A DNA stretch of 64,000 nt from an uncultured Lachnospiraceae bacterium. GTDB taxonomy: Bacteria > Bacillota > Clostridia > Lachnospirales > Lachnospiraceae. The position numbers and the translations under genes are program-made. Below, one piece after another: positions 37,210 through 59,761 of this stretch; position 1 is the first letter of the stretch; every line of letters starts with the position of its first letter. The notes beneath the pieces are model-generated. The model saw nothing but the letters and a program-made list of their open reading frames with translations. It made no database searches and had not been told where the DNA came from. The stretch is taken from contig CANPUE010000003.1 of the NCBI GenBank assembly GCA_947577185.1, positions 1 to 64,000 on the forward strand, written 5' to 3'.

Positions 37210-37406
37210 TGCAATCGTGTATCGGCACCTCTGCTGCTGTAAGGTTTCCGCAGTTCGTACGGATATTGCTCCTTATTAAGTGTGGTTTCATTTTGGTCCT
37301 GATTATTTTGTACATGCAGCTGCGGAGATCTTACAGTAACAGAGGAGAAATGACCTGAAGTCAGATGACAGAAGGTAAAACGGGTGAAATAAGGAGACGC
37401 TACAGG

Positions 37407-38174
37407 ATGAAGAAAGCTTTTACTATTGTACGGATAAAAAATATTGTCAGGGGAAATTTCTTTTTAAACAGCATATTAGAGTGCTGTCTGACTGCGGCTG
37501 CGCTCATCAGAGCAAATTTAGGGGGGGGGTATGCCGCAGATGGAGAAGACTTAATTGTAAGCCGGTTACTGCAGGAAGAATATAGAATGCCGATCGGCAA
37601 AATGAAATATGTGGATTTGGGGGCAAATCACTGGTGCAGAGAGAGCAATAGTTATTATTTCTATCGAAGAGGAGCCAGCGGAGTTCTTTTAGAGGCCAAT
37701 CCTTTGCTGTGCAAAAAGCTCAGGAAGAAGAGGAAAAGGGATATTATTGTGAATGCGGCTGTAGATATTCAGAAAAGAAAGAATGTTTCCTTCTATGTGC
37801 TGTCTTTGTTGACAAGAAGCTCCATTGATGAAGAAAGCGTTTCAAGGGCGCTGAAAATGGGGGCGGCTGTACGGGAAGTAATACAGGTACCCTGTGTTTG
37901 TATCAATGAGCTATTGGAAAAATATCAGATTTGTCCGGATCTGCTGACTATGGATATCGAGGGAATGGATTATAAAGTGTTGCGGAGCCTTGATTTGAAA
38001 AAATATAAAATCAAGGTGATTATTGTTGAGATATCGAATGAAATTCCGGATGTCCCCGGGACGATGGAAGAATATATGCGGCAAAACGGATATCGCATTC
38101 ATGCAAAGGCAGGGAGCAATATCATCTACAGATTAATAGAAACCGGTAATTTAGGCTCTGACATGAACCATTAG
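37407..38174 (+). CDS. FkbM-type SAM methyltransferase, phase-variable, in frame
   Basis: MKYVDLGANHWCRESNSYYFYRRGASGVLLEANP...PDLLTMDIEGMDYKVL; G9 tract encodes GGG in frame. Confidence 0.85.
   Translation: MKKAFTIVRIKNIVRGNFFLNSILECCLTAAALIRANLGGGYAADGEDLIVSRLLQEEYRMPIGKMKYVDLGANHWCRESNSYYFYRRGASGVLLEANPLLCKKLRKKRKRDIIVNAAVDIQKRKNVSFYVLSLLTRSSIDEESVSRALKMGAAVREVIQVPCVCINELLEKYQICPDLLTMDIEGMDYKVLRSLDLKKYKIKVIIVEISNEIPDVPGTMEEYMRQNGYRIHAKAGSNIIYRLIETGNLGSDMNH
37521..37529 (+). repeat. Poly-G tract, G9 (ON)
   Basis: TTTA-GGGGGGGGG-TATG. Confidence 0.95.
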
Positions 38175-38212
38175 ATGAAAAGAGAAGGCAATAACGGTAA
38201 GAGGAAAAGGGA

Positions 38213-39160
38213 ATGAGTGTAGAGATATCAACTTATGGAGGGAAACTTGGGTGGCTGGCCAGAAAGTATCTGCCTTCTGCGGCAAGCAGTGCATATTTGA
38301 AACTTCAATATATAAAAAGAAGAAAAGCATCACAGGAGTATATAGACTATTTTTGCGGCAGCCCGGTTAAGCCGCAGCCATTAAACATATTGTTGGAAAC
38401 AATCAACAGATGCAATAGCACATGTTCTTTCTGTGCAGCAAACAGGAATGATGAAAGCCGCCCATTTTGCAGGATGGATGAGGCTTTGTTCCGAAAAACC
38501 GTTTCCCAGCTGGCAGAATGGAATTATTCCGGATACCTGTCCCTGTTTGCAAATAATGAACCCTTTATGGACACCAGAATAATAGAATTTCATAAATATA
38601 TACGTGAGAAACTGCCGGAGGCGAAGATCAAAGTTTTTACAAATGGTCTTTTGTTAGATCATAAGAAGTTTGAAGAGATTGCGCCTTACACAGATTTATT
38701 TATTATTAACAATTATTGTGAGGACGGAAAGCTGCATGCTAACATTGCGGAACTTTACAAGTACCTGAAGAGAAATCCGTCCCTGCATGAGAAAATTGAT
38801 GTACAGATTAAGATCAGGTACATCGGGGAAGTTCTGACAAACCGGGCCGGCTCTTCTCCCAATAAAAAAGAAACGAAAAAAGTCATAACAGAACCATGTC
38901 TGTTTCCCTATACGGATATGGTGATTTATCCCGATGGAAAAGCAGGAATATGCTGCTGCGATGTGAAAGAAGTGACGAATCTGGGAAATGTAAACAGTGA
39001 GACGATGCAGGAAATATGGACGGGTAAGAAGTACGAGAGCCTGCGTAAAAAATTGCAGGATGGCAGACAGGGAAATAAGTTTTGTGAGCATTGTGATTTT
39101 GTGGACACGGGGTTAAGAGTGAAGCTGGCAAGAACGGTAAACAACGGCAGGAGTAAATAA
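38213..39160 (+). CDS. Radical SAM/SPASM protein in glycan locus
   Basis: LETINRCNSTCSFCAANRNDES; SPASM-like GICCCDVKEVTNLGNVNSETMQEIW...CEHCD. Confidence 0.88.
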   Translation: MSVEISTYGGKLGWLARKYLPSAASSAYLKLQYIKRRKASQEYIDYFCGSPVKPQPLNILLETINRCNSTCSFCAANRNDESRPFCRMDEALFRKTVSQLAEWNYSGYLSLFANNEPFMDTRIIEFHKYIREKLPEAKIKVFTNGLLLDHKKFEEIAPYTDLFIINNYCEDGKLHANIAELYKYLKRNPSLHEKIDVQIKIRYIGEVLTNRAGSSPNKKETKKVITEPCLFPYTDMVIYPDGKAGICCCDVKEVTNLGNVNSETMQEIWTGKKYESLRKKLQDGRQGNKFCEHCDFVDTGLRVKLARTVNNGRSK

Positions 39161-41421: not shown

Positions 41422-41422
41422 A

Positions 41423-42159
41423 ATGGTTATAAAAAGAATAAAGGCAGGATATTGCCCTGTATGTCAGAAAAAGACTGTTTTTATTTCGTTCGACTGCTGG
41501 TTAAGAGAGTCATATAAGTGCATCATTTGCCGCAGCAAACCAAGACAGCGTGCCATAATAAAAGTTCTGGATGATACCTTTCCTGACTGGCGGAACAGAA
41601 AGATCTATGAAAGCAGCTCCGATTGGGGAAAGGGAAGAAAATTCGCGCTGAAACACTGCCAGGATTATCAATATTCCTATTTTTATGAGGAAAAAAAGCC
41701 GGGAGCTATCTTGAATGATTCCTGCACGAATCAGAACCTTGAACAGTTAACTTTTGCGGATGAGTCATTTGATGTGGTCATCACGCAGGATGTGTTTGAA
41801 CATATAAATGATCCGTTCCGGGCATTCAGAGAAATAGAACGGGTATTGAAACCAGGGGGGGGCATTTCTTTACAGTACCGATAGATGCACCGCTTTGCAA
41901 AACAGTTCCAAGGATCAGATTGGAAAATGGTGTTCGGAGAGCAATTTTGCCGGAAGTTTATCATGGCAATCCGATTGATAAAGAAAAGGGTTCTCTGGTA
42001 ACCTGGGACTGGGGAAACGATATCTGTGAACTGGTTGAAACATGTTCGGGAATGCGTACTTCAATCGTGGAATTTGACAAATATTATAATTGTGAAGAAA
42101 ATACCAGACTTGGGCTGGAAGCATATTCGTTATATGTTTTGGTATCAAGAAAAGGGTAA
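41423..42159 (+). CDS. Class I SAM methyltransferase split by G8 tract (OFF; +1 G gives 245 aa)
   Basis: FDVVITQDVFEHINDPFRAFREIERVLKPGGG then frameshift; with G9 continues HFFTVPIDAPLCKTVPRIRLENGVRRAILPEVYHGNPID...LYVLVSRKG*. Confidence 0.85.
41855..41862 (+). repeat. Poly-G tract, G8 (OFF; G9 predicted ON)
   Basis: AACCA-GGGGGGGG-CATTTC. Confidence 0.95.
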
Positions 42160-42160
42160 A

Positions 42161-42360
42161 AAAGGAACTTTGAATTTCTTCGATGATGAGACGCATGTGC
42201 GGATATATTCTTTACAGGAAATATATAATTCCTGCGGTTAATCTTGCTGATACCGCTAAAAGTAATATGGCATAAAATTGACAGGGGATACGTTCTTGCA
42301 TCTGCTTTTTGGGACTTCCTGGGATTTGCAGAATATTGTATCTTTCAGAAAGAAAGCTAA
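42161..42360 (+). pseudogene. Frameshifted C-terminal remnant, possibly methyltransferase-derived
   Basis: KGTLNFFDDETHVRIYSLQEIYNSCG* in one frame, then ILLIPLKVIWHKIDRGYVLASAFWDFLGFAEYCIFQKES* in another. Confidence 0.5.
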
Positions 42361-42376
42361 GGGATGAATTTTACAG

Positions 42377-43528
42377 ATGAAAATAATCGCATTTTATTTA
42401 CCTCAGTTTCATACGATTCCTGAAAATGATGAATGGTGGGGGGAAGGATTTACGGAGTGGGTTAATGTAAAAAATGCAAAACCTCTCTTTGAAGGCCACG
42501 ATCAGCCAAGAGTTCCGCTGCATAAAAATTACTATAATCTGCTGGATCAGAAGACTCTGTATTGGCAGGCAGATCTGGCAAATACATATGGCATTTATGG
42601 CTTTTGCATGTATCATTATTGGTTTCACGGACACAGACTTCTTGAAAAACCCGTGGAAAATTTTTTGAAGGATAAATCAATACACATACATTTTTGTATT
42701 TGCTGGGCAAATGAAAACTGGACGAATGCATGGGCATCCGGTGAACGCAAGATTTTGATTGAACAGGATTATGGTGAAAGAGAAGACTGGGAAAAACACT
42801 TTTATTATCTGCTTCCTTTTTTTCAGGATGACAGATATATAAAAGAAGGCAATAAGCCTTTTATGGTCATTCTGCGGCCTGACATTATTGAATGCGGCCA
42901 GGAAATGTTCTCATGCTGGGACAGACTGGCAAGAGAGAACGGATTTGACGGAATGATATTTGCCAGCCAATATCCCGGATCGGAAGAGGTGGAAGAACAG
43001 TTAACATACTGTATCGAATATCAGCCAAACCATGCGTATAGATGGGCGAAGAATCCCTTTTATCTTTTTGCAAAACGACAGAAAGATAAACTGATGAATC
43101 GATTGAATCAACTATTTCATACGCATACTTTCTCTACTGTATACTTTGAACCTAAATTGGAAAAACGTAATTACGACGTGCTGTGGAACGCAATATTGAC
43201 CCATAAACCGACAAGTGATAAATGTATTCCGGGAGCTTTTATAGACTGGGATAATACGTCCAGAAGAGGAAATCGTGGAAGCGTATGTATTGGGGCAACT
43301 CCTGAGAAGTTTGAAAACTATCTGGAAAAATTGGTTTGGAAAGCGAGAAAGGAATATAAAACGGACTATCTTTTCCTCTTTTCATGGAATGAATGGGCGG
43401 AAGGCGGGTATCTGGAACCGGACGAAAAGCACGGCTATCGATATTTGGAAATTGTCAGAGCGGTTTTGGAAAGAAATGGAGAATTGCCTCAGAAGGCTGA
43501 TCTGCGGACTGAAAAAGGAGCATTATAG
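42377..43528 (+). CDS. WbsX-like glycosyltransferase/GH99-like protein
   Basis: IAFYLPQFHTIPENDEWWGEGFTEWVNVKNAKPLFEGHDQPRVPL; SWNEWAEGGYLEPD. Confidence 0.92.
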   Translation: MKIIAFYLPQFHTIPENDEWWGEGFTEWVNVKNAKPLFEGHDQPRVPLHKNYYNLLDQKTLYWQADLANTYGIYGFCMYHYWFHGHRLLEKPVENFLKDKSIHIHFCICWANENWTNAWASGERKILIEQDYGEREDWEKHFYYLLPFFQDDRYIKEGNKPFMVILRPDIIECGQEMFSCWDRLARENGFDGMIFASQYPGSEEVEEQLTYCIEYQPNHAYRWAKNPFYLFAKRQKDKLMNRLNQLFHTHTFSTVYFEPKLEKRNYDVLWNAILTHKPTSDKCIPGAFIDWDNTSRRGNRGSVCIGATPEKFENYLEKLVWKARKEYKTDYLFLFSWNEWAEGGYLEPDEKHGYRYLEIVRAVLERNGELPQKADLRTEKGAL

Positions 43529-43533
43529 CAAAG

Positions 43534-44536
43534 ATGAATCTTAATTTACTGTCAAACTACAGAAAGGAACTGTTTGGCGCCTGCATATTAGGCGTACTGG
43601 CCGGACATGCATTGCCTGACATGAATGCATACCACAGTTCCTTTTTATATTATTTTGTAAAACTGTTCTCTCTGATCGGAGTGAGAGGTTTTATTTTTTT
43701 GAGTGGATTCGGTCTTTATTATTCCTTTCGAAAATCTGATCATACCGGGGGGGGGTAAATGCCGGGCGTTTTACCGCAAACGGTTTATGAGAGTATATGT
43801 TCCATACTGCTGTCTGGGAATGCCCTATTTTATATGGAAATTCATCACTGTACAATGGGATCTGCCTGAATTGTTAACTTTTGTATTTCCTGTAAGTTTT
43901 TGGATCTATGGAAACGCTGCGGGTATGTGGTACATTGATGCAATTTTGATTTTTTATCTTGTTTTTCCCTTTTTGTATCGGTGTCTGAAGACGGAAAAAG
44001 CTAAAGTTTATTCTTTTTTGTTTGTTCTTCTGGGGGTTATCGGAAACGTTCTGCTATTTTATCTGAACCGATCATACTATGATTTAGTGACGATAGGAAT
44101 TTCCAAAATACCGCTGCTTATCTTTGGAACTTATGTTGGAAAGTGCGCGTATGGGGAAAAGAAAATAAAATGGAACCATTTGATTTTGATATCAATTGTG
44201 TGGTTCGTGCTCTACATGATTGTACCGGATGGATCCATGGGTTATACGTGGTTATGTGACATAAGAAGTGTACTGGGATGTCTGTATCTGGCAGAAATGC
44301 TTGATTTGGTTAAGAATCAATACATCAGTAAAATCTTGTCCTTTTTTGGCGCATTAACGTTAGAACTTTATTTATTGCATTTGTTTATTGGGGATGTGCT
44401 GGCGCAATATCATGTTATTCAAAATGCTGTTGTTCGGTATTGTATGACAGTTATATTATCGATTGTGATAGCCTGCATTTTTTCTGTCAGTTATCGAAAG
44501 AGTCTGGAGAAGTTAAGGGAAGATGGGGAAGCCTAA
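43534..44536 (+). CDS. Acyltransferase family 3 split by G9 tract (OFF; G8 gives 333 aa)
   Basis: MNLNLLSNYRKELFGACILGVLAGHALPD...FIFLSGFGLYYSFRKSDHTGGG* ; -1 G continues KCRAFYRKRFMRVYVPYCCLGMPYFIWK... Confidence 0.85.
43747..43755 (+). repeat. Poly-G tract, G9 (OFF; G8 predicted ON)
   Basis: CATACC-GGGGGGGGG-TAAATG. Confidence 0.95.
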
Positions 44537-45749
44537 AGAAATTCTATGGTTGTCAGTGAGCATTCCATACGATGAAGTCGATCACGCAGGAGGAAAAACA
44601 CATAATTTTTATTTAAAAAAAGTTCACGAAGATAAAAATTTCCGCGTGAAACTTATTTCCTTTTGTGAAAAAAAAGATTACGGAAAAAGTGATCTGGAAA
44701 AATATCATTTGGATGCGGATATCTGTTACCTTGATATCCATATTTGGAATAAGGTTGACAGAAAAATCCGAAATCTGGAATCTACATTGAATCCATTTAC
44801 GAAATATGCAAACGCTATGTCAAATTACAGGGTGAAAGAATGCATGAAGCGGGTGAGGAAACTGCATCGGAGCGGATACAGGCCGGACGTTATTATTCTG
44901 CATTGGACGCCGTTATTGTTATTGCAGAAGGAAATCAGAAGTTTCTTCCCCAATGCCAGGTTAGCCGCCATAGAAGAAGATGTCATGTTTCAAAATTATG
45001 AGAGAAGGGTTTTGCTCGAAAAGGGCGGCTTTCGGAAATGGTTTTATCAGATACGGTATCAGAAGCTGAAAAAGATTGAACTTTCTGATCTGAATCGGAT
45101 GAATCTGATCTATGTGACGAATCGGAAAGATTATGAACTGTTGAGAAATAATGGGATAGAGGGACTGAAAGTCAATGTATTGATTCCCTATTATGATCAA
45201 TATTTTATGAGTAACCGTAAGCAGTCTTACCGGTCGAAAGATATTTTGTTTTATGGGGCAATGTCAAGAAGAGAAAATTACCTGAGTGTCTTATGGTTCA
45301 TACAAAATGTTTTTTCAAAAATAGAGGATGAAATGGTCAGACTCATTATTGTAGGAAGCCATCCTCACGAATCATTAAAAAAGTTCCAAAGCGACCGGAT
45401 CATCGTGACCGGATTTGTCAAAGATGTGTCGGTATATTTTGAAAAGTGTATGTGTCTGGCAGTTCCGCTCCTGTACGGTGCAGGAATCAAGGTAAAAGTT
45501 CTGGAAGGGTTCAGCGCCGGAATTCCGGTTGTAACGAATGATGTAGGAATAGAGGGAATAGGAGCCGAAGCCGGAAAAGAATATTATCACTGTGAATCCC
45601 CGCAGGATTATATCGATACGATAGAACGGATCATCGAAAACAGGCAGGGCGCAGGGCAGATTGGAGAGAATGGCAGAAAATTTGTGCGGGAAAGATTTGA
45701 TTACCATACATATGTCAAAGCGATGATCAGTACTTTGAAGGAGATATAA
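44523..45749 (+). CDS. GT4-like glycosyltransferase
   Basis: VPLLYGAGIKVKVLEGFSAGIPVVTNDVGIEGIGAEAGKEYYH; overlaps end of acyltransferase by 14 bp. Confidence 0.88.
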   Translation: MGKPKEILWLSVSIPYDEVDHAGGKTHNFYLKKVHEDKNFRVKLISFCEKKDYGKSDLEKYHLDADICYLDIHIWNKVDRKIRNLESTLNPFTKYANAMSNYRVKECMKRVRKLHRSGYRPDVIILHWTPLLLLQKEIRSFFPNARLAAIEEDVMFQNYERRVLLEKGGFRKWFYQIRYQKLKKIELSDLNRMNLIYVTNRKDYELLRNNGIEGLKVNVLIPYYDQYFMSNRKQSYRSKDILFYGAMSRRENYLSVLWFIQNVFSKIEDEMVRLIIVGSHPHESLKKFQSDRIIVTGFVKDVSVYFEKCMCLAVPLLYGAGIKVKVLEGFSAGIPVVTNDVGIEGIGAEAGKEYYHCESPQDYIDTIERIIENRQGAGQIGENGRKFVRERFDYHTYVKAMISTLKEI

Positions 45750-47486
45750 ATGGATGCGCAAAAAAGGGAGAAGATGATCAATCTCGGCCTGCATGTTTTT
45801 TTTGCCGCCGTTATTGGGATTGCGGCACTATGGGGGATAGAGAGGAATACAACAGTAACTATCCTGACGGATGAGTTTGCATATTGGACGCCGGCGGCAT
45901 GGTTAAATGGAAGAGACTGGTCGGCCGCTATGGTTAATTATCCATATTATGGATACGGATACGGTTTTTTTCTGGCGATTGTCATGAAACTGTTTCCGGA
46001 TGTCCGCATGATGTATCAGGCGGCGCTCGTGGCAAATGCGGTCATGCTTATAGGTAATTATTTTATTGCCTATCAATGCTGGCTGCTGTCAGTCAGCCAT
46101 AATAAGCGCCATGGTATGACAGGCGCTTTTCTGGCAGTCATCTATTGTTCTAACATTTTTTATGCCAGATTGACATTGATAGAAATTTTTTTCAGCTTTC
46201 TGTTTTGGATTCTGATTTGGCTTTCCGTAACGATGAGCCATAGCAGATGGAAAAAGTTCACATTCTGTATCGTGCTGGCGCTGCTCTTAGCGACTCATAA
46301 CAGAGCGCTGGGGATCGTGGCAGCGTTTATGCTCAGCGTGGCCGTATGCTGGAGGAAAGAGGAGAGCAGGAGAGAAAAACTGGAATTGGTCTGTGTGTTG
46401 CTGTTAGGTTATTTGCTGGCTTACATCGGAAAAAAATACTTTCAGTCTGTAATCTATCCGGATCCGACCTCTGACGCTATGAAAATAACAGATACGGCCG
46501 GACAGGTTTCAAAAATCAAATTCCTGTTGGGCTGGAATGGTCTGAAAGCGTTTGTTGTTTCGTTTTTGGGAAAATCCTGTTATGTTCTGATCTCTTCTTT
46601 TTTTCTCGCAGGGTATGGGTGTGTTTCTATGGTAAGAAAAGCAGCAGAGTGTTTCCGGAAAAGGAACTGGAAAGAAATGTTTCCCGTTTTTTTTGCCAAT
46701 GTTTCTTTTTGGGCGGTATTGTGTATCACAGCAATTTATTTTTCTCCGTCGTATCAATACAGAATGGATACTTTATTATACGGGAGATATCATGAATGTC
46801 TTTTAGGGCCGCTTATTTTATTCGGAATCGGAGAAATACTGTATCGGAAAACAATCGGAAAAGAAACGGCATATATCATATTAACAGGATTGCTATTGAC
46901 GCTTATCACTGTCAGGTATCTTCCGCGTGATCAATCCGGTACGAATCTGGGAATTAATTGCGTTGGCATATCCGACTTGTTTTATCAATCCTTTTCGATT
47001 ACCAAAACAGTTTATACAGCAGCTATAAGGGGGAGTCTGTTTGTTACTGCGCTGTTTGCGTTTAAGTGCGTGAAAAAGTACAAAACCTGGTTATTAACCG
47101 GCTGTTTTGCCTTTCTTGCGGTATGTTGGATCGATATCGCATTATTTGATGCAGACGCAAGAGTTTATCAGTGGACGGAAGAAACGATTGCGTCAAATGA
47201 AACATTGATGAAAGCTGCAGAGGGACAGGCCGGGAAATTGGAAAAACTGTATTTTTACCAGTTAGATCAGGAAAATTATAATGCAGCATTGCTGCAATTT
47301 ATACGACCTGACGCAGAAATCATATATTTGGATGACCGCACGCAGTTAGATGCTCTGGAGAAAGGAACGATTCTATTTACTGACAATGAAAAAGCAGATT
47401 CAGGAAACGATTTTTCGGGCGGGCATCAATTTGAGCTGCTGTCCTCCAATTATTACTTTAAGACATGGAGAAAGAAGAGTAACTAA
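45750..47486 (+). CDS. GT-C-like multi-TM protein (putative glycosyltransferase)
   Basis: ILTDEFAYWTPAAWLNGRDWSAAMVNYPYYGYGYGFFLAIVMKLF; paralog of 34151-36103. Confidence 0.75.
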   Translation: MDAQKREKMINLGLHVFFAAVIGIAALWGIERNTTVTILTDEFAYWTPAAWLNGRDWSAAMVNYPYYGYGYGFFLAIVMKLFPDVRMMYQAALVANAVMLIGNYFIAYQCWLLSVSHNKRHGMTGAFLAVIYCSNIFYARLTLIEIFFSFLFWILIWLSVTMSHSRWKKFTFCIVLALLLATHNRALGIVAAFMLSVAVCWRKEESRREKLELVCVLLLGYLLAYIGKKYFQSVIYPDPTSDAMKITDTAGQVSKIKFLLGWNGLKAFVVSFLGKSCYVLISSFFLAGYGCVSMVRKAAECFRKRNWKEMFPVFFANVSFWAVLCITAIYFSPSYQYRMDTLLYGRYHECLLGPLILFGIGEILYRKTIGKETAYIILTGLLLTLITVRYLPRDQSGTNLGINCVGISDLFYQSFSITKTVYTAAIRGSLFVTALFAFKCVKKYKTWLLTGCFAFLAVCWIDIALFDADARVYQWTEETIASNETLMKAAEGQAGKLEKLYFYQLDQENYNAALLQFIRPDAEIIYLDDRTQLDALEKGTILFTDNEKADSGNDFSGGHQFELLSSNYYFKTWRKKSN

Positions 47487-48947
47487 GTGAAGCAGAACAG
47501 CATGAAAAAAAATTATTTTTATAATCTGTTGTATGGAATTGCTTCTTTCATTTTTCCGCTTATCACGACACCATATGTATCCAGAAAACTCAGCGTGACT
47601 GTGATTGGAGAATACAGTTTTACTTTTTCTCTGGCAAGTTATTTCATGTTGATTGCAGTTTTTGGCTGTCATGTACAGGGACAGAGAGAAATTGCTTACA
47701 GGCATGGAAATCCTGGTGAATGTACAAAAGTTTTTTTTGACAATACTCTCATAAAGTTTTGTATGACAGTACTTGCGCTTGGTCTGTACCTTGTAGTCTG
47801 TCTGGTTGAAAAAGAGCATGTCTGGTTATTGCTGATTCAGGGAATTGCGATTGCTGCCGCATTTTTTGACATTAGCTGGTTTTTTCAGGGAATGGAAGAA
47901 TTCAGATTAACCTTATTCAGGAATCTGATCGTCAAGACAGCCGGAATGGTTATGATATTCCTGTTTGTGAAAGAAGATTCCGATTTATGGATATATGCTT
48001 TATGCTATCCGCTTTCGACCCTGTTGGGAAATTTGTCGTTATGGCTGTCGCTTCCGAGATATCTTGTCCGCATAGCGTACAAACCCTGTTTCAACAAGAA
48101 TTATTTCAAAATCGCTTTTGAGTTGTTTATTCCAATTTTGTCCAGTCAGATCTATTCGGTCACGGACAGGGCGATGATGGGCTTTATGTTAGAGACGACA
48201 GAAGAAAACGGTTATTATGAACAGGCGCAGAAAATAATGCGTATTATGATGACTGTTTCGGATTCTATGGGGGCTGTATTGCTCCCCAGAATAGCGATCC
48301 TTTTTGAAGAAAAAGCGTATGAAAAGATAAAAGATATTCTGAAAAAGACAGTCGTAATCATTCTGGGATTAACGTGTCCCATGGCAGTTGGCATTTTTGT
48401 GATTGCAGAGGATTTTATTCCGCTGTTTTTGGGGCAGGGATATGGGAAAACGGCTTTACTGCTCAGCGTTTTGGCGCCAATCCTGATTCTTTCGGGAATA
48501 TGTAATATTTTAGGGCTGGGTGTTTTGATTCCAATGGGCAGGCATAATAAGGCAACTGTTGCAACGACTGCAGGTGCATTTATCAACATTGTGTTAAATG
48601 TGGTGTTGATCAGAAGATACTTTTCCGTTGGTGCGGCGACAGCATCTGTGATTGCAGAGATTATTGTTTTTGCAATTCATTTTTATTACGCCAGAGAATA
48701 TATCAGTTTTGGTTTTGTGGCAAAAAAATTCGTGCGATACTTTGGAATGGCTTCTGCTATGGGCGTAACGACCGGTATTTTTCAGCATATGTTTCGTGAT
48801 ACGGGCATGGGAGTTCAAATAACGTTTCGTGTGACAGGTGCGGTTGTGTTTTATCTGGTCATCCTTTTAGCACTGAGGGATGAAATCTGGAAAAATGATA
48901 TAGCGCCGACAGTGAGCCGTTTATTAAAAAAGAGATCAGGAGGGTAA
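47487..48947 (+). CDS. Oligosaccharide flippase, Wzx/MATE-like
   Basis: YGIASFIFPLITTPYVSRKLSVTVIGEYSFTFSLASYFMLIAVFG. Confidence 0.92.
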   Translation: MKQNSMKKNYFYNLLYGIASFIFPLITTPYVSRKLSVTVIGEYSFTFSLASYFMLIAVFGCHVQGQREIAYRHGNPGECTKVFFDNTLIKFCMTVLALGLYLVVCLVEKEHVWLLLIQGIAIAAAFFDISWFFQGMEEFRLTLFRNLIVKTAGMVMIFLFVKEDSDLWIYALCYPLSTLLGNLSLWLSLPRYLVRIAYKPCFNKNYFKIAFELFIPILSSQIYSVTDRAMMGFMLETTEENGYYEQAQKIMRIMMTVSDSMGAVLLPRIAILFEEKAYEKIKDILKKTVVIILGLTCPMAVGIFVIAEDFIPLFLGQGYGKTALLLSVLAPILILSGICNILGLGVLIPMGRHNKATVATTAGAFINIVLNVVLIRRYFSVGAATASVIAEIIVFAIHFYYAREYISFGFVAKKFVRYFGMASAMGVTTGIFQHMFRDTGMGVQITFRVTGAVVFYLVILLALRDEIWKNDIAPTVSRLLKKRSGG

Positions 48948-48950
48948 AAT

Positions 48951-49991
48951 ATGGTGTATTTAGATGCGACCCGTGCGATCGGGGGGGGGTTAAAACGATA
49001 TATAGAGTACATATCATCCGGCACAGAGATCTATGATTTTGTCATCGGCGACAGGAGCGTTTTGGAGGAGATTTACGCAAGAGAGAAAATCATTGATTCA
49101 GAAACTTTTACAAAAAAAACCGCGGATTCTTTGACAGGACAGGATATCATACATTTTCCGGCGGGAACCATGACAGATTTAAAGTTCAGAAGACTGCACT
49201 GTAAGATTATAGTTACAATTCACGACTGTACGCCTTTAAGGGTTAAGGTTCTTTCCGAAAAAGAAACGAAAATCTGGATAAAAAACACGAGAAATGCGCT
49301 CAAACAGGCGGATCTGGTGATTGCAATTTCCAGGACGACAAAAGACGATATCAAAATTTTCTTTCCGGAAACAGACCAGTCTAAAATTCATGTGATCTAC
49401 AACGGAGTCAGTCCGGTTTTTGAAAAGCGCAAAGAGTACAGTCCGATTGATACACGCTTTCGATATTCATTTTTTTTAGGAAGGAGCAGAATACGGCATA
49501 AGAACTTTTGGAGAAGTCTTTTGGCATTTCGCCTTTCCAGACATTTTAAAGATTGTTTATTATATACGACTTTATCCGATACACCCAAAATAAATTTTCT
49601 TTTTTATATCCTCATGATGAGAAAACATGTATGCCTGTTGGGTGACTTGACGGATGATGAGATGATAAACATTTTCAACCAGATTGACGCGCTGATTTTT
49701 ATGAGTCTGTACGAAGGGTTTGGACTTCCTCCGGTGGAAGCTATGCGCTGCGGAGCGGCGGTAATCTGTTCGGATATCAAGATCTGTCATGAAATATATG
49801 GAGATGTGCCATATTACGCGGATCCTCATAAGGTTACTGACATTATGAGAGCGATAACATTATGCGTGGAGGATACCAGACTCAGAGAACGAAAAAGAGA
49901 GAATGGTTTATCGCTTGGAGAAAAATACAGATTGGAAGAGATGGTTTCGGCTACTGCAGGACTCGTGGAACGATTAAAGATGCGGTGTTAG
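48951..49991 (+). CDS. GT4 glycosyltransferase, phase-variable, in frame
   Basis: MVYLDATRAIGGGLKRYIEYISSG; ISRTTKDDIKIFFPETDQSKIHVIYNGVSP; LYEGFGLPPVEAMRCGAAVICSD. Confidence 0.92.
   Translation: MVYLDATRAIGGGLKRYIEYISSGTEIYDFVIGDRSVLEEIYAREKIIDSETFTKKTADSLTGQDIIHFPAGTMTDLKFRRLHCKIIVTIHDCTPLRVKVLSEKETKIWIKNTRNALKQADLVIAISRTTKDDIKIFFPETDQSKIHVIYNGVSPVFEKRKEYSPIDTRFRYSFFLGRSRIRHKNFWRSLLAFRLSRHFKDCLLYTTLSDTPKINFLFYILMMRKHVCLLGDLTDDEMINIFNQIDALIFMSLYEGFGLPPVEAMRCGAAVICSDIKICHEIYGDVPYYADPHKVTDIMRAITLCVEDTRLRERKRENGLSLGEKYRLEEMVSATAGLVERLKMRC
48981..48989 (+). repeat. Poly-G tract, G9 (ON), codons 11-13
   Basis: GCGATC-GGGGGGGGG-TTAAAA. Confidence 0.95.
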
Positions 49992-50020
49992 ATCTGACAA
50001 AGAAAGAAGGGAACAGACAA

Positions 50021-50957
50021 ATGAAAATAAAGACAGTCAACAGGGAAAAATCTAAGGGGGGGGGGTGAGCGGTACCTCGTCAATTATTATAAAAAGGATC
50101 GCAATAATATCGGCCTTCTCGCAGTAAAAAAGATATATCGAAAATTTTTTCACAAAGACAAAGACTATGCGTATATTTCCAGAAATGTAATAGCTGATTT
50201 TGAAAGACAGCCTGAATTATTCCAGGCAATCGAAATAGAAACGATTAACCGCTGCAACGGAGTATGTGCCTTTTGTCCCGTAAATAGCAGAATCGACAAA
50301 AGGGAATATAAATTAATGGAAGAAGAAATCTTTTATAAGATTATCGATGAACTGGCGGAACTGAAATATTGCGGTACAGTTGACCTGTGTTCTAACAATG
50401 AACCTTTTCTGGATCAGCGTATCGTTCGATTCGCGCAATATGCCAGACAGATGCTGCCAGACGCATACCTGTTTTTATACACAAATGGAACTCTGCTGAC
50501 AACGGAGTTATTTCAGGAGATTGAGCCGTATGTAAACAGAATAGATATTGATAATTATTCAGATACACTGGAAATGATTCCTTCTATCAGAAAAATATAT
50601 GATTATTGTTATGAAAATGATATTGACTCAAAAAAAGTGAATATTATTCTGAGAAAAGTGAATGAGGTGTTAAGTTCAAGGGGAGGGCAGGCACCTAATA
50701 AACTGAACGGGGAAGCATCCGGGAAACCATGCATATTGCCCTATGTGCAGCTGGTAGTCCGCTCGGAAGGAAAAGTAAGTCTGTGCTGTAATGACGCATT
50801 GGGAAAATATACAATGGGGGATTTACACACGCAGACACTGAAAGAAATCTGGTTCAGCACAGAATACGAGTCTGTTCGCAAAGAGATGTCCCGGAATGGA
50901 AGAAAAAACCTCCGGTTATGCAATGCCTGTGATGTAGAACCGGGAATAGAGTTTTAG
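50021..50957 (+). CDS. Radical SAM/SPASM protein split by G10 tract (OFF; G9 gives 311 aa)
   Basis: MKIKTVNREKSKGGG* ; -1 G continues ERYLVNYYKKDRNNIGLLAVKKIYRKFF...IETINRCNGVCAFCPVNSRIDKREYKLMEEEIF... Confidence 0.87.
50056..50065 (+). repeat. Poly-G tract, G10 (OFF; G9 predicted ON)
   Basis: TCTAA-GGGGGGGGGG-TGAGC. Confidence 0.95.
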
Positions 50958-51036
50958 GCGTTTTGCTCATGGCACTGTCATCACAGCAGACTGTCTGGCA
51001 TGGATGATCGGGCTGACAGGCGGCATGGAGGGTGGT

Positions 51037-52143
51037 ATGAAAGCTGAAAAGAGAAATGCAGGAATTGAACTTCTGAAAATCTGCAGTATGTATATGATTG
51101 TGACAATGCATGTGATGGGAGCAAATCAGGCAGATGCCATTCATTTGACACGAAATGAACTCTGGTATATTGCTTTGCACCCGGTATTTAATTGTGCAGT
51201 TGATGTTTTTGCACTGATAAGCGGGTATGTGCAATATAAAAGCCAAAACAAAGTTAAAAGCGTCCTGTACAGGTATGGGGTGGTTTGGTTCTATTCCGTG
51301 GTCATCACATTTGGGGTATGGTTTTATGAGCATGAAGCCGTAACCGTTTCTGACCGGATCTACGCTTTCTTTCCGCTGCTGTCGGCAAGATACTGGTACT
51401 ATACGGCATATATGGGAATGAGCCTGTTTGCTTCGTATTTAAAGCGATTTGTATCAGGATCTTCAAAGAATGAGGATAAGATTCTGCTGTGCAAAATAAT
51501 TGTCGTCAGTACCATTCTGCCATTTTTAAAAGACTATGGAATCGGGATGAAGGATGGGTTTTCCATGTGGTGGCTGTTGTGTCTGTATATGATCGGGCTG
51601 TACCTTGCAAAGTATGAAAAAGAAGTGATCAGAAGGAAAGCGGTAATTTATATAGGGGGGGGTATTTCTCTCGTGCTGATTTCCGTGACAGAACTGCTCA
51701 TTGGACTGTTGGTACAGCATGCACTGATTTCTGAAAACTACAGAGGATTATTTGATAAATATAACTCACCATTTTTACTTTTTTACAGTATTGCATTGTT
51801 TCTGTTATTTATGCAGATTACGTTTTGTGCAAGAACATATAGGGTTGTGATACCGTTGGCTTCGTCTACGTTCAGTGTGTATTTGATCCATACGAATACG
51901 GCCTTCCACAAACTTTTTATTGCGGACAGATTTACGTTTATAAATGATAGGGAACCGGCTGGAATGTTTGCCATGCTGTTATTGATTTCATTTATTTTAT
52001 ACATTGCCTGTACTTTTTTGGATCTGATCAGGAAAAAAGTATTTGCATTATCAGGATACGATTTTTTGGTTGAACGGGTCCTTAACGTGACTGGAACTAT
52101 TGGAGCTAAGGTTTTCGATTACTATGATCTGGAAAGGAAATAG
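51037..52143 (+). CDS. Acyltransferase family 3, phase-variable, in frame
   Basis: MKAEKRNAGIELLKICSMYMIVTMHVMG; multi-TM; G8 in frame as IGGGIS. Confidence 0.88.
   Translation: MKAEKRNAGIELLKICSMYMIVTMHVMGANQADAIHLTRNELWYIALHPVFNCAVDVFALISGYVQYKSQNKVKSVLYRYGVVWFYSVVITFGVWFYEHEAVTVSDRIYAFFPLLSARYWYYTAYMGMSLFASYLKRFVSGSSKNEDKILLCKIIVVSTILPFLKDYGIGMKDGFSMWWLLCLYMIGLYLAKYEKEVIRRKAVIYIGGGISLVLISVTELLIGLLVQHALISENYRGLFDKYNSPFLLFYSIALFLLFMQITFCARTYRVVIPLASSTFSVYLIHTNTAFHKLFIADRFTFINDREPAGMFAMLLLISFILYIACTFLDLIRKKVFALSGYDFLVERVLNVTGTIGAKVFDYYDLERK
51655..51662 (+). repeat. Poly-G tract, G8 (ON)
   Basis: TATATA-GGGGGGGG-TATTTC. Confidence 0.95.
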
Positions 52144-52151
52144 ATGAACAT

Positions 52152-52926
52152 ATGAAACAAAGACGAGACAGGAAAAAAATGGAGTTGGAAATGAAAGTAA
52201 AGAAATGGATACAGAAGGGGGGGGGCAGGCAGTGGACTTGCTATGCGGTGCCTTGTATTAAAAAATACTTTCACAGGCTCTATGAGAAAACGAAAAAAGG
52301 GAAAAGTGTTTCAAACGCCTATACCGTATAAGAAAAGAGAACGCAAATCAATCTATGAACTGCCATATGAACAGGAAGCCAGAACTGCCGCACTGGAAAG
52401 GGCAGCAAGAGAAATCTATGATAAAAAACTGCCCGGGAATACGGCGGAAGTCGGCGTGTACCGGGGCAGTTTTGCACAGCATATTAACTGGTGGTTTTTT
52501 GATAAAAAATTGTATCTGGCTGATACCTTTGAAGGATTTGATCAGAAAGATGTTTTGGTAGAAAAAAAGTTTCATTACTCTGCAGGAACACAGGAATGGA
52601 ATGATACCAGTGCGGAATATGTACTTTCCCGTATGCCAAACCCTCAAAATTGTGTGATCAGGAAGGGATGGTTTCCAAAGGTAATGGAAGATGTGACAGA
52701 TCTTTTTTGTTTTGTAAGTCTGGACACGGATCTGTACGAACCGATATATGCAGGGCTGACCTGGTTTTATCCCAGATTAGTACGCGGCGGCTATATTTTC
52801 GTACATGACTGCTGTAACGCTGAATATAAAGGTGCCAGACAGGCACTGCTTGATTTTTCGCAGAAGCATCAGGTTGGGTATGTTATCTTGCCGGATGAAC
52901 ATGGGACAGCAGTAATTACAAAATGA
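52152..52926 (+). CDS. TylF/MycF-like SAM methyltransferase, interrupted by G9 tract (OFF; G8 gives 257 aa)
   Basis: NTAEVGVYRGSFAQHINWWFFDKKLYLADTFEGFDQKD...FVSLDTDLYEPIYAGLTWFYPRLVRGGYIFVHD. Confidence 0.75.
52217..52225 (+). repeat. Poly-G tract, G9 (OFF; G8 predicted ON)
   Basis: CAGAA-GGGGGGGGG-CAGGC. Confidence 0.95.
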
Positions 52927-53008
52927 GGATAAAAGTTTCATTCGTCTGGACTGTGATAGATCAGGCCGGAAGAAAATCACAATAGTTAGAGTAATCCGGA
53001 GGCTTATT

Positions 53009-54513
53009 ATGCTTTTTAATTCAATTGAATTTCTGCTGTTTTTCCCCATCGTGACGTTTGTTTATTTTATTTTTCCGAAGAAATACCGCTATTTATGGCT
53101 GCTTGCGTCCAGTTACTTTTTTTATATGAGCTGGAATATCAACTATGCATTTTTGCTGTTTGCATCAACACTTATCACTTATACAGCATCCATTGGAATA
53201 GCATGGTGTGGATACAGGGAGCAAAAAATAAGTTCGGGGGGGGTGAAAACAGGCTCAGGAAATGTTTTCTTGCAGGAAGTATTATATGCAATCTGTTGAT
53301 ACTGTTTTTTTTCAAGTATATTGATTTTGCAATTGACAGTATAAATGCGGTATTACGATTTTATTATTTCGATGAGATTTCCTGCAGATTTGACCTTATT
53401 TTGCCTGTAGGCATTTCTTTTTATATTTTTCAGGCATTAGGATATACGATTGATGTATATAGAGGAGACGTGGAAGCAGAAAAAAATTTTTTCCGCTATG
53501 CATTGTTTGTATCCTTTTTTCCGCAGCTTGTTGCTGGTCCGATTGAGCGTTCCAAAAATCTTTTATCACAATTAAAGGAAGTGCATACCTTTTCCTTCGA
53601 AAGAATGAAGGATGGATTGCTGCTAATGCTGTGGGGCTATTTTATGAAACTGGTACTGGCTGACAGAATCGCGATTTTTGTTGATACGGTATATGGCGAT
53701 TTAGACACGTATACAGGATATTATGTATTAATTGCAAGTATTTTATTTGCGTTTCAAATTTACTGCGATTTTGCAGGGTATTCTACAATTGCAATGGGGG
53801 TGTCGGAAATTTTGGGGTTTCGTTTAATGGAGAATTTCAATGCTCCGTATTTCGCACAATCAGCAGCAGAATTTTGGAGACGATGGCATATTTCACTGAG
53901 TACGTGGTTTAAAGACTATTTGTATATCCCGTTGGGAGGGAGCAGAAAGGGAAAGTTAAGAAAATACCTGAATTTGTTCCTCGTATTTCTGGTCAGCGGG
54001 CTATGGCATGGGGCCAGTTGGAATTATATCATATGGGGAGGAATCAATGGTATGTTTCAGATCATGGGAGATCTGGGAAAAAATTTTCGAGATAAAATGC
54101 AAGGCTTATTGGCTCTGGAAAGAAATACATTTAGTCATAAAATATTGAAAATGGTTCTAACGTTTCTGCTGATTGATTTTGCATGGATATTTTTCAGGGC
54201 GCCTGATGGTTCGGATGTATTGAAAGTTCTTTTTAGCATGATAAAACTGGATAATCCATGGATTTTGTTTGATGGTTCTTTGTATCAGGCAGGCTTAACC
54301 CAAAAAGATTATCAATTGATGTGGATTGGAATAGGCATTTTGATTTTAGCTGATCTTTTCAAATATAAAGGAATCTGTATCAGACACCGGATACTCAGAC
54401 AGGAATGGTGGTTTCGCTGGCTGGCAGGACTGGGAAGCGTTCTGTTACTTCTTATTCTGGGGATATACGGTTATGGATATGATGCACGAAACTTTATTTA
54501 CTTCCAGTTTTAG
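53009..54513 (+). CDS. MBOAT O-acyltransferase split by G8 tract (OFF; G9 gives 501 aa)
   Basis: MLFNSIEFLLFFPIVTFVYFIFPKKYRYLWLLASSYFFYMSWN...; downstream frame GGGENRLRKCFLAGSIICNLLILFFFKYIDF...LPVGISFYIFQALGYTIDVYRGD...FLVSGLWHGASWNYIIWG. Confidence 0.92.
53236..53243 (+). repeat. Poly-G tract, G8 (OFF; G9 predicted ON)
   Basis: AGTTC-GGGGGGGG-TGAAAAC. Confidence 0.95.
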
Positions 54514-56036: not shown

Positions 56037-57035
56037 ATGATCATCACCCAAACCCCCTTCCGCATGTCCTTTTTTGGCGGCGGGACAGATATGGAGAATT
56101 ACTTTAAAGAAAATAACGGCGCGGTTATCTCAACAACGTTTGATAAATACTGTTATGTCAATGTGCGGCATCTGCCCAGATTTTTTAACTATAAAACGGA
56201 ACTCTCTTATTCTCAGATCGAGAGAGTTTCGACAGAAGATGAAATAAGGCACCCATTGATCAAAAACGCAATGCGGATGTTGGACATGCAGGAAATCAGG
56301 CTGACCTATGAGGCGGATCTGCCGGCCCGCTCCGGGCTTGGGACAAGCAGTTCCTTTGCGGTGGGAATCTTAAATGCTTTTTATGCGTTAAAAGGAAAGT
56401 ATGTCGATAAAAGAAAACTTGCAAACGAGGCAATTTATCTGGAACGTGTTTTGTGTGAGGAGGCGGGAGGATGGCAGGATCAGATCGCGGCATCTTTTGG
56501 CGGCTTTAACAGGATTGATTTCAATGCGGAAGGATTTGAGGTTCATCCGGTCATCATATCGCCGGAACGGAAATGCAGACTGAATCACAGCCTGTTACTG
56601 TTTTTTACCGGATTTACCAGATTTTCCGCACAGATACAGAGCGCCAACCAGGCTGGCGATACGGCAGGAAAGAAGCGGTATCTGGACGAAATGTACCAAT
56701 TGGTAAATGAAGCAGAGAAGGTTTTGACAGACAAATATACCGATCTGGATGAGTTCGGCAGGCTGTTGGACTGCTCCTGGAAACTGAAAAAACAGACCGG
56801 GAAAAAAGTCTCGACGGATACGATAGACGAACTTTATCGAAAGGGAATGAAAGCAGGTGCGCTGGGGGGAAAACTCCTTGGAGCAGGGGGCGGCGGATTC
56901 TTGCTTTTTTATGTCACACCGGAACGCCAGGAAGCGGTCAGGAATGCTATGAGTGACTTACTACATATTCCGTTTGTCTTTGAAAACGGCGGCACAAGGG
57001 TGCTCTACTACGCGCCGGAAGCGTATCCTGTGTAA
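56037..57035 (+). CDS. hddA: GHMP kinase, D-glycero-D-manno-heptose 7-phosphate kinase-like
   Basis: MIITQTPFRMSFFGGGTDMENYFKENNGAVIST; ARSGLGTSSSFAVGILNA; GGKLLGAGGGGFLLFY. Confidence 0.88.
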   Translation: MIITQTPFRMSFFGGGTDMENYFKENNGAVISTTFDKYCYVNVRHLPRFFNYKTELSYSQIERVSTEDEIRHPLIKNAMRMLDMQEIRLTYEADLPARSGLGTSSSFAVGILNAFYALKGKYVDKRKLANEAIYLERVLCEEAGGWQDQIAASFGGFNRIDFNAEGFEVHPVIISPERKCRLNHSLLLFFTGFTRFSAQIQSANQAGDTAGKKRYLDEMYQLVNEAEKVLTDKYTDLDEFGRLLDCSWKLKKQTGKKVSTDTIDELYRKGMKAGALGGKLLGAGGGGFLLFYVTPERQEAVRNAMSDLLHIPFVFENGGTRVLYYAPEAYPV

Positions 57036-57375
57036 CGTGCCATGCCGGTGCCGGAACCTGCAGGATGGCAGATGACAATCGTTTTTTCAGGTGAACAGGG
57101 ACCTTGACAAGTTCATACTTTTAATCAGGATTTTGTGCCTGCTTTGGGCGTCCAACAGGAAAGACAGAAAATCATAATTCCATAAAAATTTAATTGACAA
57201 ATCATATGATATCCGTTATGCTATAGTCATCAGAAAAATTCTAAGCGGGTGCGTTTCGCACATCCGGACAGTTTCTGTCAGATTTTCCAGGTAACAATTG
57301 AATATGGCGGGAAACTGGGAGTGAATACGCAAAAGAGGCATATCGGAATCCTGCCGGAACATGGGAGGATGAAGT

Positions 57376-58275
57376 ATGCAGGACACAAAAAGATTCTTTT
57401 TTAAATTGTACAAATGGGTCGGAAGAAAGCGGGTACGTCGTGAGATTAAGGACAGGCTTTTTCGGTTTTTGTTTGAGAAGGATAAAGAAGCATTGTTACA
57501 ATTATATAATGCCCTGAATGGGACGGAGTATCACGATGTGGGTATGCTGCAGGCATTCACGATTGAAAGTGCGGTTTATGCAGCAATGAAAAATGATCTT
57601 GCTTTCGTGATCACGGGAACGATGAATCTGTATGAGCACCAGAGTACTTATAATCCCAATATGCCGGTACGTTTTCTGATCTATCTGGCGGAGGAATATC
57701 AAAAGCTGATTGAGCAGGCAGAAACCAGTCTGTATGGAACGAAAAGGATCAGTCTGCCGACACCGCAGTGCGTGGTCTTCTACAACGGAGAGAAGGAGAT
57801 GCCGGAAGAACAGGTGTTAAGGCTCTCTGATGCCTTTGAGAACAAAAAGCAGAGGGCGGATGTGGAACTGACAGTCCATATGTACAATATCAATTATGGA
57901 CATAATCAGGAGCTGTTAAAGAAATGCAGGATGCTGAGAGAGTATGCGGAATTTGTGGACACAGTCAGAGCCTATCTTGCAGAAGGAATAGAAAGACAGC
58001 AGGCTTTGAACGAGGCAATCGATTATTGCATTGAGCATGGTATTTTATCAGAAATTCTAAGAAAATATAAAGCGGAGGTGCTGGGGATGCTGTTAGAAGA
58101 ATTTGATGTTGATAAGTATGAGAGAACGTTAAAAAATGAAGGCAGAGAAGAGGGGGAGGAACGCCTCAGTCAGCTGACCATTATGCTGTTAAGGCAGAAC
58201 CGCATCGACGATGTGGAGCGTATGGCATCGGACGCAGCATACAGAAAGCGCCTGTTCCGGGAGTTTGACCTGTAG
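57376..58275 (+). CDS. Rpn/PD-(D/E)XK nuclease-family-like protein
   Basis: ALNGTEYHDVGMLQAFTIESAVYAAMKNDLAFVITGTMNLYEHQSTYNPNMPVRFLIYLAEEYQKLI...VVFYNGEKEMPE. Confidence 0.65.
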   Translation: MQDTKRFFFKLYKWVGRKRVRREIKDRLFRFLFEKDKEALLQLYNALNGTEYHDVGMLQAFTIESAVYAAMKNDLAFVITGTMNLYEHQSTYNPNMPVRFLIYLAEEYQKLIEQAETSLYGTKRISLPTPQCVVFYNGEKEMPEEQVLRLSDAFENKKQRADVELTVHMYNINYGHNQELLKKCRMLREYAEFVDTVRAYLAEGIERQQALNEAIDYCIEHGILSEILRKYKAEVLGMLLEEFDVDKYERTLKNEGREEGEERLSQLTIMLLRQNRIDDVERMASDAAYRKRLFREFDL

Positions 58276-58321
58276 ACCGGCATGGGCTGGAACAGAGTAA
58301 CGAAATATCGAGAAAATTAAG

Positions 58322-58371
58322 AATCCTGATAGAAAGTAGGAACGATTAAGTGCTTTCTTTCAGGATTTTTT
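58322..58371 (+). terminator. Rho-independent terminator
   Basis: AATCCTGATAGAAAG / CTTTCTTTCAGGATT stem (one mismatch) followed by TTTT. Confidence 0.7.
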
Positions 58372-58476
58372 ATTGTATTGAAAATGGGAACGGTTTGAAA
58401 CGTTTCGAGAAAAATCCGGTACGTTATTAAGATATAACTGAGATACCGGAAAAGGGAAAGGCAGGTTGGAAGAAAG

Positions 58477-59748
58477 ATGAAAACAGTAATCATGGCCGGA
58501 GGCAGGGGAACGAGAATTGCATCCATTAACGCAGAAGTTCCAAAACCAATGATCAGGGTATGCGGGAAACCGATTCTCGAATATCAGATTGAATGTCTGA
58601 AAAAGCAGAATTTAACAGAAATTATTCTGGTGATCGGCCATCTTGGAAATGTAATAGAGGAATATTTTGGAACAGGTGCGCAGTATGGTGTGAAGATTGA
58701 ATATATTAAGGAGAAGGAACCGCTTGGAACTGCAGGAGCCTTATATCATCTAAAAGAGATGATAACAGAGGATTTCGTCCTGATAAACGGTGATATCATG
58801 TTTGATATTAATTTTTCCAGGTTGTTTCATGCTCATCAAAAGAATCATTGTCTGGCAACGATATTCACGCATCCAAACAGCCACCCTTACGACAGCGGCG
58901 TTATCGTTGCCGACAGGAGCGGATGCGTTACAGAGTGGATGACAAAAGAGGAAGAGCGGAAATGGTATCGGAACAGGGTAAATGCGGGTATTCATGTCTT
59001 ATCCGCCGAATTGTTAAACCGGTTTGAAGTTCTGCAAAAAAGAGATCTGGACCGCGACCTCTTAAAGCCTTTAATTGCTGAGAAACAGCTGTTTGTTTAT
59101 GACTCCCCTGAATATGTGAAAGATATGGGAACGCCGGAGCGGTTTTATGCGGTTGAAAAAGACATAAAGACCGGGCTTGTTCAAAGAAGAAACTTATCTG
59201 TGGAGCAGAGAGCAATTTTTCTGGACAGGGACGGGACAATCAATCAGTACGTGGGTTTTCTCAAACAGATAGATGATCTTGTTTTGCTGGACGGTGCGGC
59301 GGAGGCTGTTAAAATGATCAATCAAAGCGGATATCTCGCGATTGTTATCACCAACCAGCCCGTAATTGCAAGGGGAGAAGTTTCATGGGAAGAACTGGCG
59401 CGGATCCATAATAAAATGGAAACGCTGTTAGGGGAAAAGGGCGCTTATCTTGATGATATTTTCTGCTGTCCGCACCATCCTGATCGCGGATATGCGGGGG
59501 AAAGAGCGGAATATAAAACAGCATGTGAATGCAGGAAACCCAGGCCGGGATTATTATTGCAGGCCGCTGAGAAATATAATATCGATCTGCATAATTCCTG
59601 GATGATAGGCGACAGCATCACTGATATACAGGCCGGGAAAAGGGCCGGATGCAGGACAGCATATCTTGGGCAGCCGGAGGAAGCAGACAGCGGTACGCCA
59701 GCTTATAGCAGCCTTTTGGCATGCGTGACCGATCTATTGAGCACATAG
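58477..59748 (+). CDS. Fusion: sugar nucleotidyltransferase (HddC-like) + D,D-heptose bisphosphate phosphatase (GmhB-like HAD)
   Basis: MKTVIMAGGRGTRIASINAEVPKPMIRVCGKPILEYQI ... RAIFLDRDGTINQYVGFLKQIDDLVLLDGAAEAVKMIN...CCPHHPD...CECRKPRPGLLLQAAEKYNIDLHNSWMIGDSITDI. Confidence 0.93.
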   Translation: MKTVIMAGGRGTRIASINAEVPKPMIRVCGKPILEYQIECLKKQNLTEIILVIGHLGNVIEEYFGTGAQYGVKIEYIKEKEPLGTAGALYHLKEMITEDFVLINGDIMFDINFSRLFHAHQKNHCLATIFTHPNSHPYDSGVIVADRSGCVTEWMTKEEERKWYRNRVNAGIHVLSAELLNRFEVLQKRDLDRDLLKPLIAEKQLFVYDSPEYVKDMGTPERFYAVEKDIKTGLVQRRNLSVEQRAIFLDRDGTINQYVGFLKQIDDLVLLDGAAEAVKMINQSGYLAIVITNQPVIARGEVSWEELARIHNKMETLLGEKGAYLDDIFCCPHHPDRGYAGERAEYKTACECRKPRPGLLLQAAEKYNIDLHNSWMIGDSITDIQAGKRAGCRTAYLGQPEEADSGTPAYSSLLACVTDLLST

Positions 59749-59761
59749 GAGAAAATGTCAT

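Follow-up and report, generated by a model that had tools for sequence, protein, structure and literature searches.

The radical SAM gene that begins at ATG 50021, in a polysaccharide locus of an uncultured Lachnospiraceae bacterium, carries within its reading frame a run of ten Gs (G10) which, in the assembled state, leaves the gene OFF; the reading that we favour, with a rough probability of 0.6, is that this run is a slippage switch on a BtrN-like enzyme oxidizing a surface sugar. The analysis covered a stretch of 64,000 nucleotides, called here the window, and followed an earlier note that had described a radical SAM gene of a glycan locus, intact except for a homopolymer gate that turns it OFF; both the reading frames and the gene content of the locus agree with that description. 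The features discussed in the text are collected in Table 1.

Table 1. Coordinates of the G tracts and of the radical SAM gene features in the window.
Feature	Position	Strand	State or basis
G9 in FkbM methyltransferase gene (37365-38174)	37521..37529	+	ON
Ungated BtrN-like radical SAM paralogue, genus-conserved clade	38213..39160	+	
G8 in class I methyltransferase gene (starts 41423)	41855..41862	+	OFF
G9 within Acyl_transf_3 gene	43747..43755	+	OFF
G9 in glycosyltransferase gene (48951-49991)	48981..48989	+	ON
AAGGGA, plausible ribosome-binding site, 8 nt 5′ of ATG 50021	50007..50012	+	sequence; inferred
OFF-state product, 15 aa, ATG 50021 to TGA 50066-50068	50021..50068	+	reading frame
G10 tract, proposed slippage switch	50056..50065	+	assembled state OFF
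ON-frame body of the radical SAM gene	50066..50957	+	homology; Pfam Radical_SAM and SPASM
CNGVCAFC, radical-SAM [4Fe-4S] motif (C62, C66, C69)	50253..50276	+	invariant, 49 sequences
R204-G-G (AGG GGA GGG), equivalent of BtrN Arg152	50679..50687	+	
Twitch (SPASM-like) domain (C221, C239, C284, C287), one auxiliary cluster	50730..50933	+	
G8 in Acyl_transf_3 gene (51004-52143)	51655..51662	+	ON
G9 ahead of TylF-type methyltransferase body	52217..52225	+	OFF if the start is ATG 52152
G8 in MBOAT acyltransferase gene (start 53009, body to 54513)	53236..53243	+	OFF

Reading Frames of the 50021 Gene

Translation from ATG 50021 yields MKIKTVNREKSKGGG, that is, 15 residues followed by TGA, as the earlier note had reported, and its count of exactly ten Gs in the tract was reproduced as well. 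The frame that would be joined by G9 is open from 50031 to 50957 and includes IETINRCNGVCAFC; thus, the claim that G9 would give a protein of 311 residues containing the 4Fe-4S motif also holds. More generally, either G9 or G12 leads to an intact protein of 311-312 residues, the ON state requiring a tract length divisible by three, and, by the reading frames, a change of one unit is enough to toggle the gene between the full protein and the truncation. This single lesion of the gene sits exactly in the homopolymer and is followed by 296 open codons.

Between position 50031 and the first cluster cysteine, the ON frame contains no ATG, GTG or TTG, but only ATC, ATA and ATT, and a later start, ATG 50316, would drop CNGVCAFC; the G10 allele thus gives no working enzyme by ordinary initiation. 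G10 is the sole allele of the gene observed, in one assembly that is 67% complete, with neither G9 nor G12 seen, and an exact DNA search of viral contigs for a second allele of the tract returned 0 matches.

Long G Runs in the Polysaccharide Locus

Eight G runs of G8-G10 are found within 16 kb of the polysaccharide locus (37.5-53.3 kb), all of them on the coding (+) strand, while the longest G run elsewhere in the window is 6 and the longest on the opposite strand of the locus is 4. The lengths of the runs in the locus are bimodal, with every long run on the coding strand: between 37 and 54 kb this strand contains 22 runs of G4, 12 of G5, 1 of G6, 0 of G7, 3 of G8, 4 of G9 and 1 of G10. According to the run statistics of the remainder of the window, at most 0.01 G10 words are expected per 64 kb, both strands included, and words of GGGGGGGG were observed 14 times against 1.9 ± 1.7 in shuffles; the 50056-50065 tract is well beyond chance. 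Elsewhere in its own assembly, of 2.49 Mb and 67% completeness, only three tracts of G9 or longer occur.

The whole polysaccharide locus, 37521-53243, reads as a contingency locus, in which eight genes and not just one carry a gate. As assembled, three of the tract-bearing genes are ON and five OFF, the latter including the TylF-type methyltransferase, for which the OFF call hinges on the start, since initiation 3′ of the tract, at 52243, is also possible. In the Acyl_transf_3 gene interrupted at 43747, the upstream piece corresponds to positions 11-65 of the profile and the downstream piece to positions 68-325, in different frames.

Homopolymers are error-prone and the G10 allele comes from one assembly; thus, the frame break could be no switch at all, but the permanent lesion of a pseudogene or a mistake of the assembly. 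This explanation is decidedly improbable, however, given that the long runs gather on one strand of one locus, that G9-G13 tracts occur in coding frames genus-wide, that the enzyme downstream is intact with all its catalytic residues, and that a sister pair with G5 and G9 records a length change within the genus; moreover, a miscounted length would not abolish the tract. Another explanation is recoding at G10, by a +1 shift of the ribosome at GGG TGA or by slippage of RNA polymerase, in which case some enzyme would always be made. A +1 shift at the stop does lead exactly into the ON frame; however, recoding is extremely unlikely, as it leaves unexplained the seven other tracts of the locus, which vary in length and position and three of which are in frame.

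These data make it very probable that the G10 tract is a phase-variable gate operating by slipped-strand mispairing. During replication, the run would gain or lose single Gs, and a clone would mix G9 or G12 (ON) with G10 or G11 (OFF). Where the gene is ON, ribosomes that start at ATG 50021 would cross three glycines, located in an N-terminal stretch that is probably flexible, and proceed into the complete BtrN-like enzyme.

A BtrN-Like Twitch Radical SAM Enzyme

The 50021 protein matches the Pfam families Radical_SAM and SPASM, and its body retains all catalytic residues; residue numbering is that of the translation of 50070-50954. R204, which is invariant, aligns with Arg152 of BtrN, a residue reported by Goldman and others in 2013 to contact the substrate. 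The auxiliary cysteines follow the pattern C-x17-C-x44-C-x2-C, where C221, C239, C284 and C287 correspond, with identical spacing, to BtrN 169, 187, 232 and 235; the numbering of BtrN was anchored on the C16/C20/C23 triad quoted in PMC9012708. A PDB search with a profile of 49 sequences retrieved BtrN with an E value of 8e-38, the next entry being at 8e-5. The AlphaFold model of the protein (pLDDT 84, pTM 0.83) has as its top Foldseek match 4m7t, the structure of BtrN in complex with AdoMet and its substrate (E 3.5e-19; TM 0.85, normalized to the length of the target), well ahead of the other structures, the runner-up protein being at 6.6e-9; identity with BtrN over the structure alignment is only 22-27%. 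NCBIfam models gave sub-threshold matches only, and no named subfamily fits the protein.

The gene had been labelled radical SAM/SPASM in the earlier note. The radical SAM assignment stands and is accompanied by the Pfam SPASM match, but the protein does not have the seven cysteines of SPASM, which is defined by the motif CX9-15GX4C-CX2CX5CX3C-C and by two auxiliary clusters (PMC6231123). C221-x12-G234-x4-C239 and C284-x2-C287 are present, while the CX5CX3C part is absent, the C-terminus being reached 8 residues on; the 50021 enzyme is thus a twitch protein, with cysteines that fit one auxiliary cluster as in BtrN, and not a full SPASM protein.

BtrN converts 2-deoxy-scyllo-inosamine to a ketone by oxidation (PMC9012708). 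From its kinship to BtrN in sequence and fold, the 50021 enzyme probably oxidizes a sugar or polyol hydroxyl in a similar way. The substrate, which the earlier note had left as unknown, can thus be narrowed to this class of hydroxyls; among the neighbours scanned, neither an aminotransferase nor any other partner from which the product could be named was recognized. Function in this radical SAM subfamily does not track sequence clustering (PMC6231123), and, granted that an enzyme is made, we give alcohol oxidation about an even chance of being its chemistry. In the proposed reaction, AdoMet and the [4Fe-4S] cluster would take a hydrogen from a carbon of a sugar or sugar-like compound, and the auxiliary cluster would act as electron acceptor, so that a hydroxyl of a surface-polysaccharide unit, or of its activated precursor, would become a ketone.

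The region 56037-60466 contains genes for a GHMP kinase, a nucleotidyltransferase-HAD phosphatase fusion and a SIS isomerase, which likely provide GDP-heptose. A GHMP kinase, a nucleotidyltransferase, a HAD phosphatase and a SIS isomerase are the usual set for GDP-activated heptose. Because genes of this type sit in the locus, heptose may be one candidate sugar for the 50021 enzyme.

Radical SAM epimerases exist, and the same gate could control a sugar epimerase, in which the hydrogen is abstracted and then returned, or an enzyme with some other twitch chemistry. EpeE is among the weaker fold matches of the model, and an extra invariant cysteine, Cys240, beside the ligand Cys239 could donate the hydrogen; however, it is a dehydrogenase, BtrN, that stands closest by a wide margin, and SpeY, another twitch dehydrogenase, is found among the next fold matches, so that we consider this alternative rather unlikely. 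Many SPASM/twitch radical SAM proteins modify peptides, and NCBIfam models of this kind match the 50021 protein weakly, far under the cut-off. That it is a RiPP-type peptide maturase and not a glycan enzyme is nevertheless very unlikely: the intergenic gaps of 29 bp upstream and 46 bp downstream of the gene leave little space for a precursor gene, glycosyltransferases are the commonest neighbours of the relatives, and BtrN, the best fold, acts on an aminocyclitol. A switched, BtrN-like oxidation of a surface sugar is therefore the reading that we retain.

The 38213 Paralogue and the Relatives of the Enzyme

The earlier note had also proposed that the 50021 gene is a paralog of the ungated 38213 gene. 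The 38213 gene, whose longest G run is 4, is indeed an ungated paralogue, with about 34-39% identity to 50021; it is not a recent copy, however, as the two genes belong to separate deep clades of the tree, each with 100/100 support. The 38213 clade is present in most genomes of the genus, whereas the 50021 clade is accessory, and no close orthologue of the 50021 gene was found in the genomes searched. A third radical SAM gene of the window (28841-30229), with a marginal SPASM match, lies outside the glycan locus and adjoins secDF; from its position, it looks like a SCIFF-type peptide maturase.

Relatives of the 50021 enzyme that fall in the same clade (L001-L054) come from glycan loci of gut Clostridia and are mostly 43-54% identical to it. 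An extra Rossmann-like domain with the motif GAGxYG is fused to the N-terminus of L003, L004, L006-L010 and others, and many accessory relatives combine such a domain with the absence of long G runs, whereas the 50021 protein, together with the short relatives L001, L005 and L085, is devoid of this domain; what sets 50021 apart from the many ungated relatives is thus a short N-terminus combined with a G10 gate. The GAGxYG domain has no convincing Pfam name and is possibly a sugar- or nucleotide-binding module. Among the Pfam matches in 89 genes adjacent to the relatives, family 2 glycosyltransferases rank first (26), followed by other radical SAM proteins (9), MptE/Maf-like proteins (8) and glycosyltransferases of family 1 (7). 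A radical SAM gene of a second kind, with the motif EHCNLNCKCC, was observed directly 3′ of the BtrN-like gene and is OFF at a G10 (L010:8828 / L120:6086).

Long G runs are also present within some of the relatives. L002 is split at a G13 in its N-terminal part, just 5′ of the radical SAM core, and its start codon is in a different frame; L052 is split at a G8 that falls on the RGG codons. In L038, a G9 occupies the same RGG codons and the gene is intact; the idea that L038 is broken was dropped, as this G9 is in frame. Runs at this motif may begin simply as AGG GGG GGG codons, so that the G9 of L038 alone proves nothing, and the split in L052 may be an assembly error. If L002 and L052 are taken at face value, the gates of these enzymes may have more than one origin, a suggestion that belongs to the tentative genus-wide proposal given at the end.

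A search of 397 genomes of the family found eight with a close member of the enzyme, and the newly found members are ungated. For two tract-rich families of the order, the searches yielded one genome with the enzyme, in two copies, and showed no tract in the enzyme genes; thus, tract abundance and enzyme abundance do not simply go together.

G Tracts in the Genus and in the Order

Tracts of G9 or longer are found in 74 of the 78 genomes of the genus, many of which contain dozens. Fifty-five tracts of the genus were read in context (9 G9, 35 G10, 8 G11, 2 G12 and 1 G13), in regions that were picked for holding tracts, so that the figures describe the tracts and not their rate. Of the 55, 41 continue on their own strand into an open frame no shorter than 180 nt; for 12 of the 55 a longer frame lies on the opposite strand, so that sense gating does not apply to every tract. 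Among the frames gated in the genus are flagellins, FkbM and other methyltransferases, MBOAT, an acyltransferase, BspA-type repeats, CotH and regulators. Three poly-G tracts enter flagellin frames in sister species, which hints at a gated flagellin.

Length change in the genus finds its best natural test in two sister genomes, L194 (G041:C102) and L195 (G045:C4), which are 93% identical over 5.4 kb. Here, a large membrane protein is encoded near the conserved radical SAM gene; its frame, of 666 codons, is whole with G5 and split with G9, the difference being four bases located exactly in the run; the comparison concerns another gene than 50021 and was made between species, not within a clone. 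It is the one usable pair that resulted from an all-against-all comparison of 82 tracts. Orthologous tracts were also sought by searching the genus with the DNA of the locus: the matches listed, of about 65-70%, concerned the MBOAT and WbsX-like parts, and none of these extended across the tracts.

At the level of the order, the distribution of the tracts is patchy, being mostly absent from the sampled other genera of the same family and very numerous in some other families. More than 100 G10 words per genome were counted in G077, G128, G098 and G145, all from other families of the order. One genome of the order contains an unbroken run of about 36 Gs (G148:C1:461763-461798), which could be a sequencing artefact.

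Known Systems and Biological Meaning

Poly-G contingency loci are textbook knowledge for Campylobacter, Helicobacter and Neisseria. In Campylobacter jejuni, the run in cgtB alternates between lengths of 8 and 9 Gs (PMC6437147). Similarly to the poly-G glycan genes of Campylobacter, the locus described here has G8-G10 tracts within the reading frames of glycan-type genes; in this case, however, the host is a gut bacterium of the Lachnospiraceae (Bacillota), and switching is predicted from the sequence of one assembly. The earlier note had considered a homopolymer-gated radical SAM gene unusual: the gate is there, but it is not unprecedented, as PhasomeIt identified two poly-G (G9-10) radical SAM genes in the core phasome of Campylobacter fetus (PMC6321876), and a gated radical SAM gene is thus not new in itself. 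As for the enzyme, it resembles BtrN (PDB 4M7T, 4M7S; PMC9012708) in fold, CxxxCxxC motif, spacing of the auxiliary cysteines and Arg152 equivalent, while it differs from it by its low identity, by its position in a surface-polysaccharide locus and not in an aminoglycoside cluster, and by the poly-G gate. No description of poly-G phase variation in Clostridia was found in the open-access literature searched, the coverage of which is far from complete; as far as these searches go, the gut Clostridia setting, the BtrN assignment and the recurrent gates in the enzyme family are new.

A broader proposal, which we put forward tentatively and rate somewhat below even odds, is that the genus places its surface glycans under a poly-G phasome like that of Campylobacter, in which one switch would control the oxidation of a surface sugar by a radical SAM enzyme; single cells would then differ by a keto-sugar or by its follow-on product, and the gates of the enzyme family would have more than one origin, one of them at the codons for the Arg-Gly-Gly motif presumed to bind the substrate. 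Together with the seven other gated glycan genes of the locus, the 50021 switch would generate a combinatorial surface.

The poly-G logic extends here through a genus of gut Clostridia, where it involves surface sugar genes, flagellins and others. Turning a radical SAM step on and off would represent a marked change in the chemistry of a surface sugar, visible to phages, antibodies and lectins. For the uncharacterized BtrN-like family, which is widespread in glycan loci, the sugar or polyol hydroxyl would provide a concrete class of substrates that can be tested.
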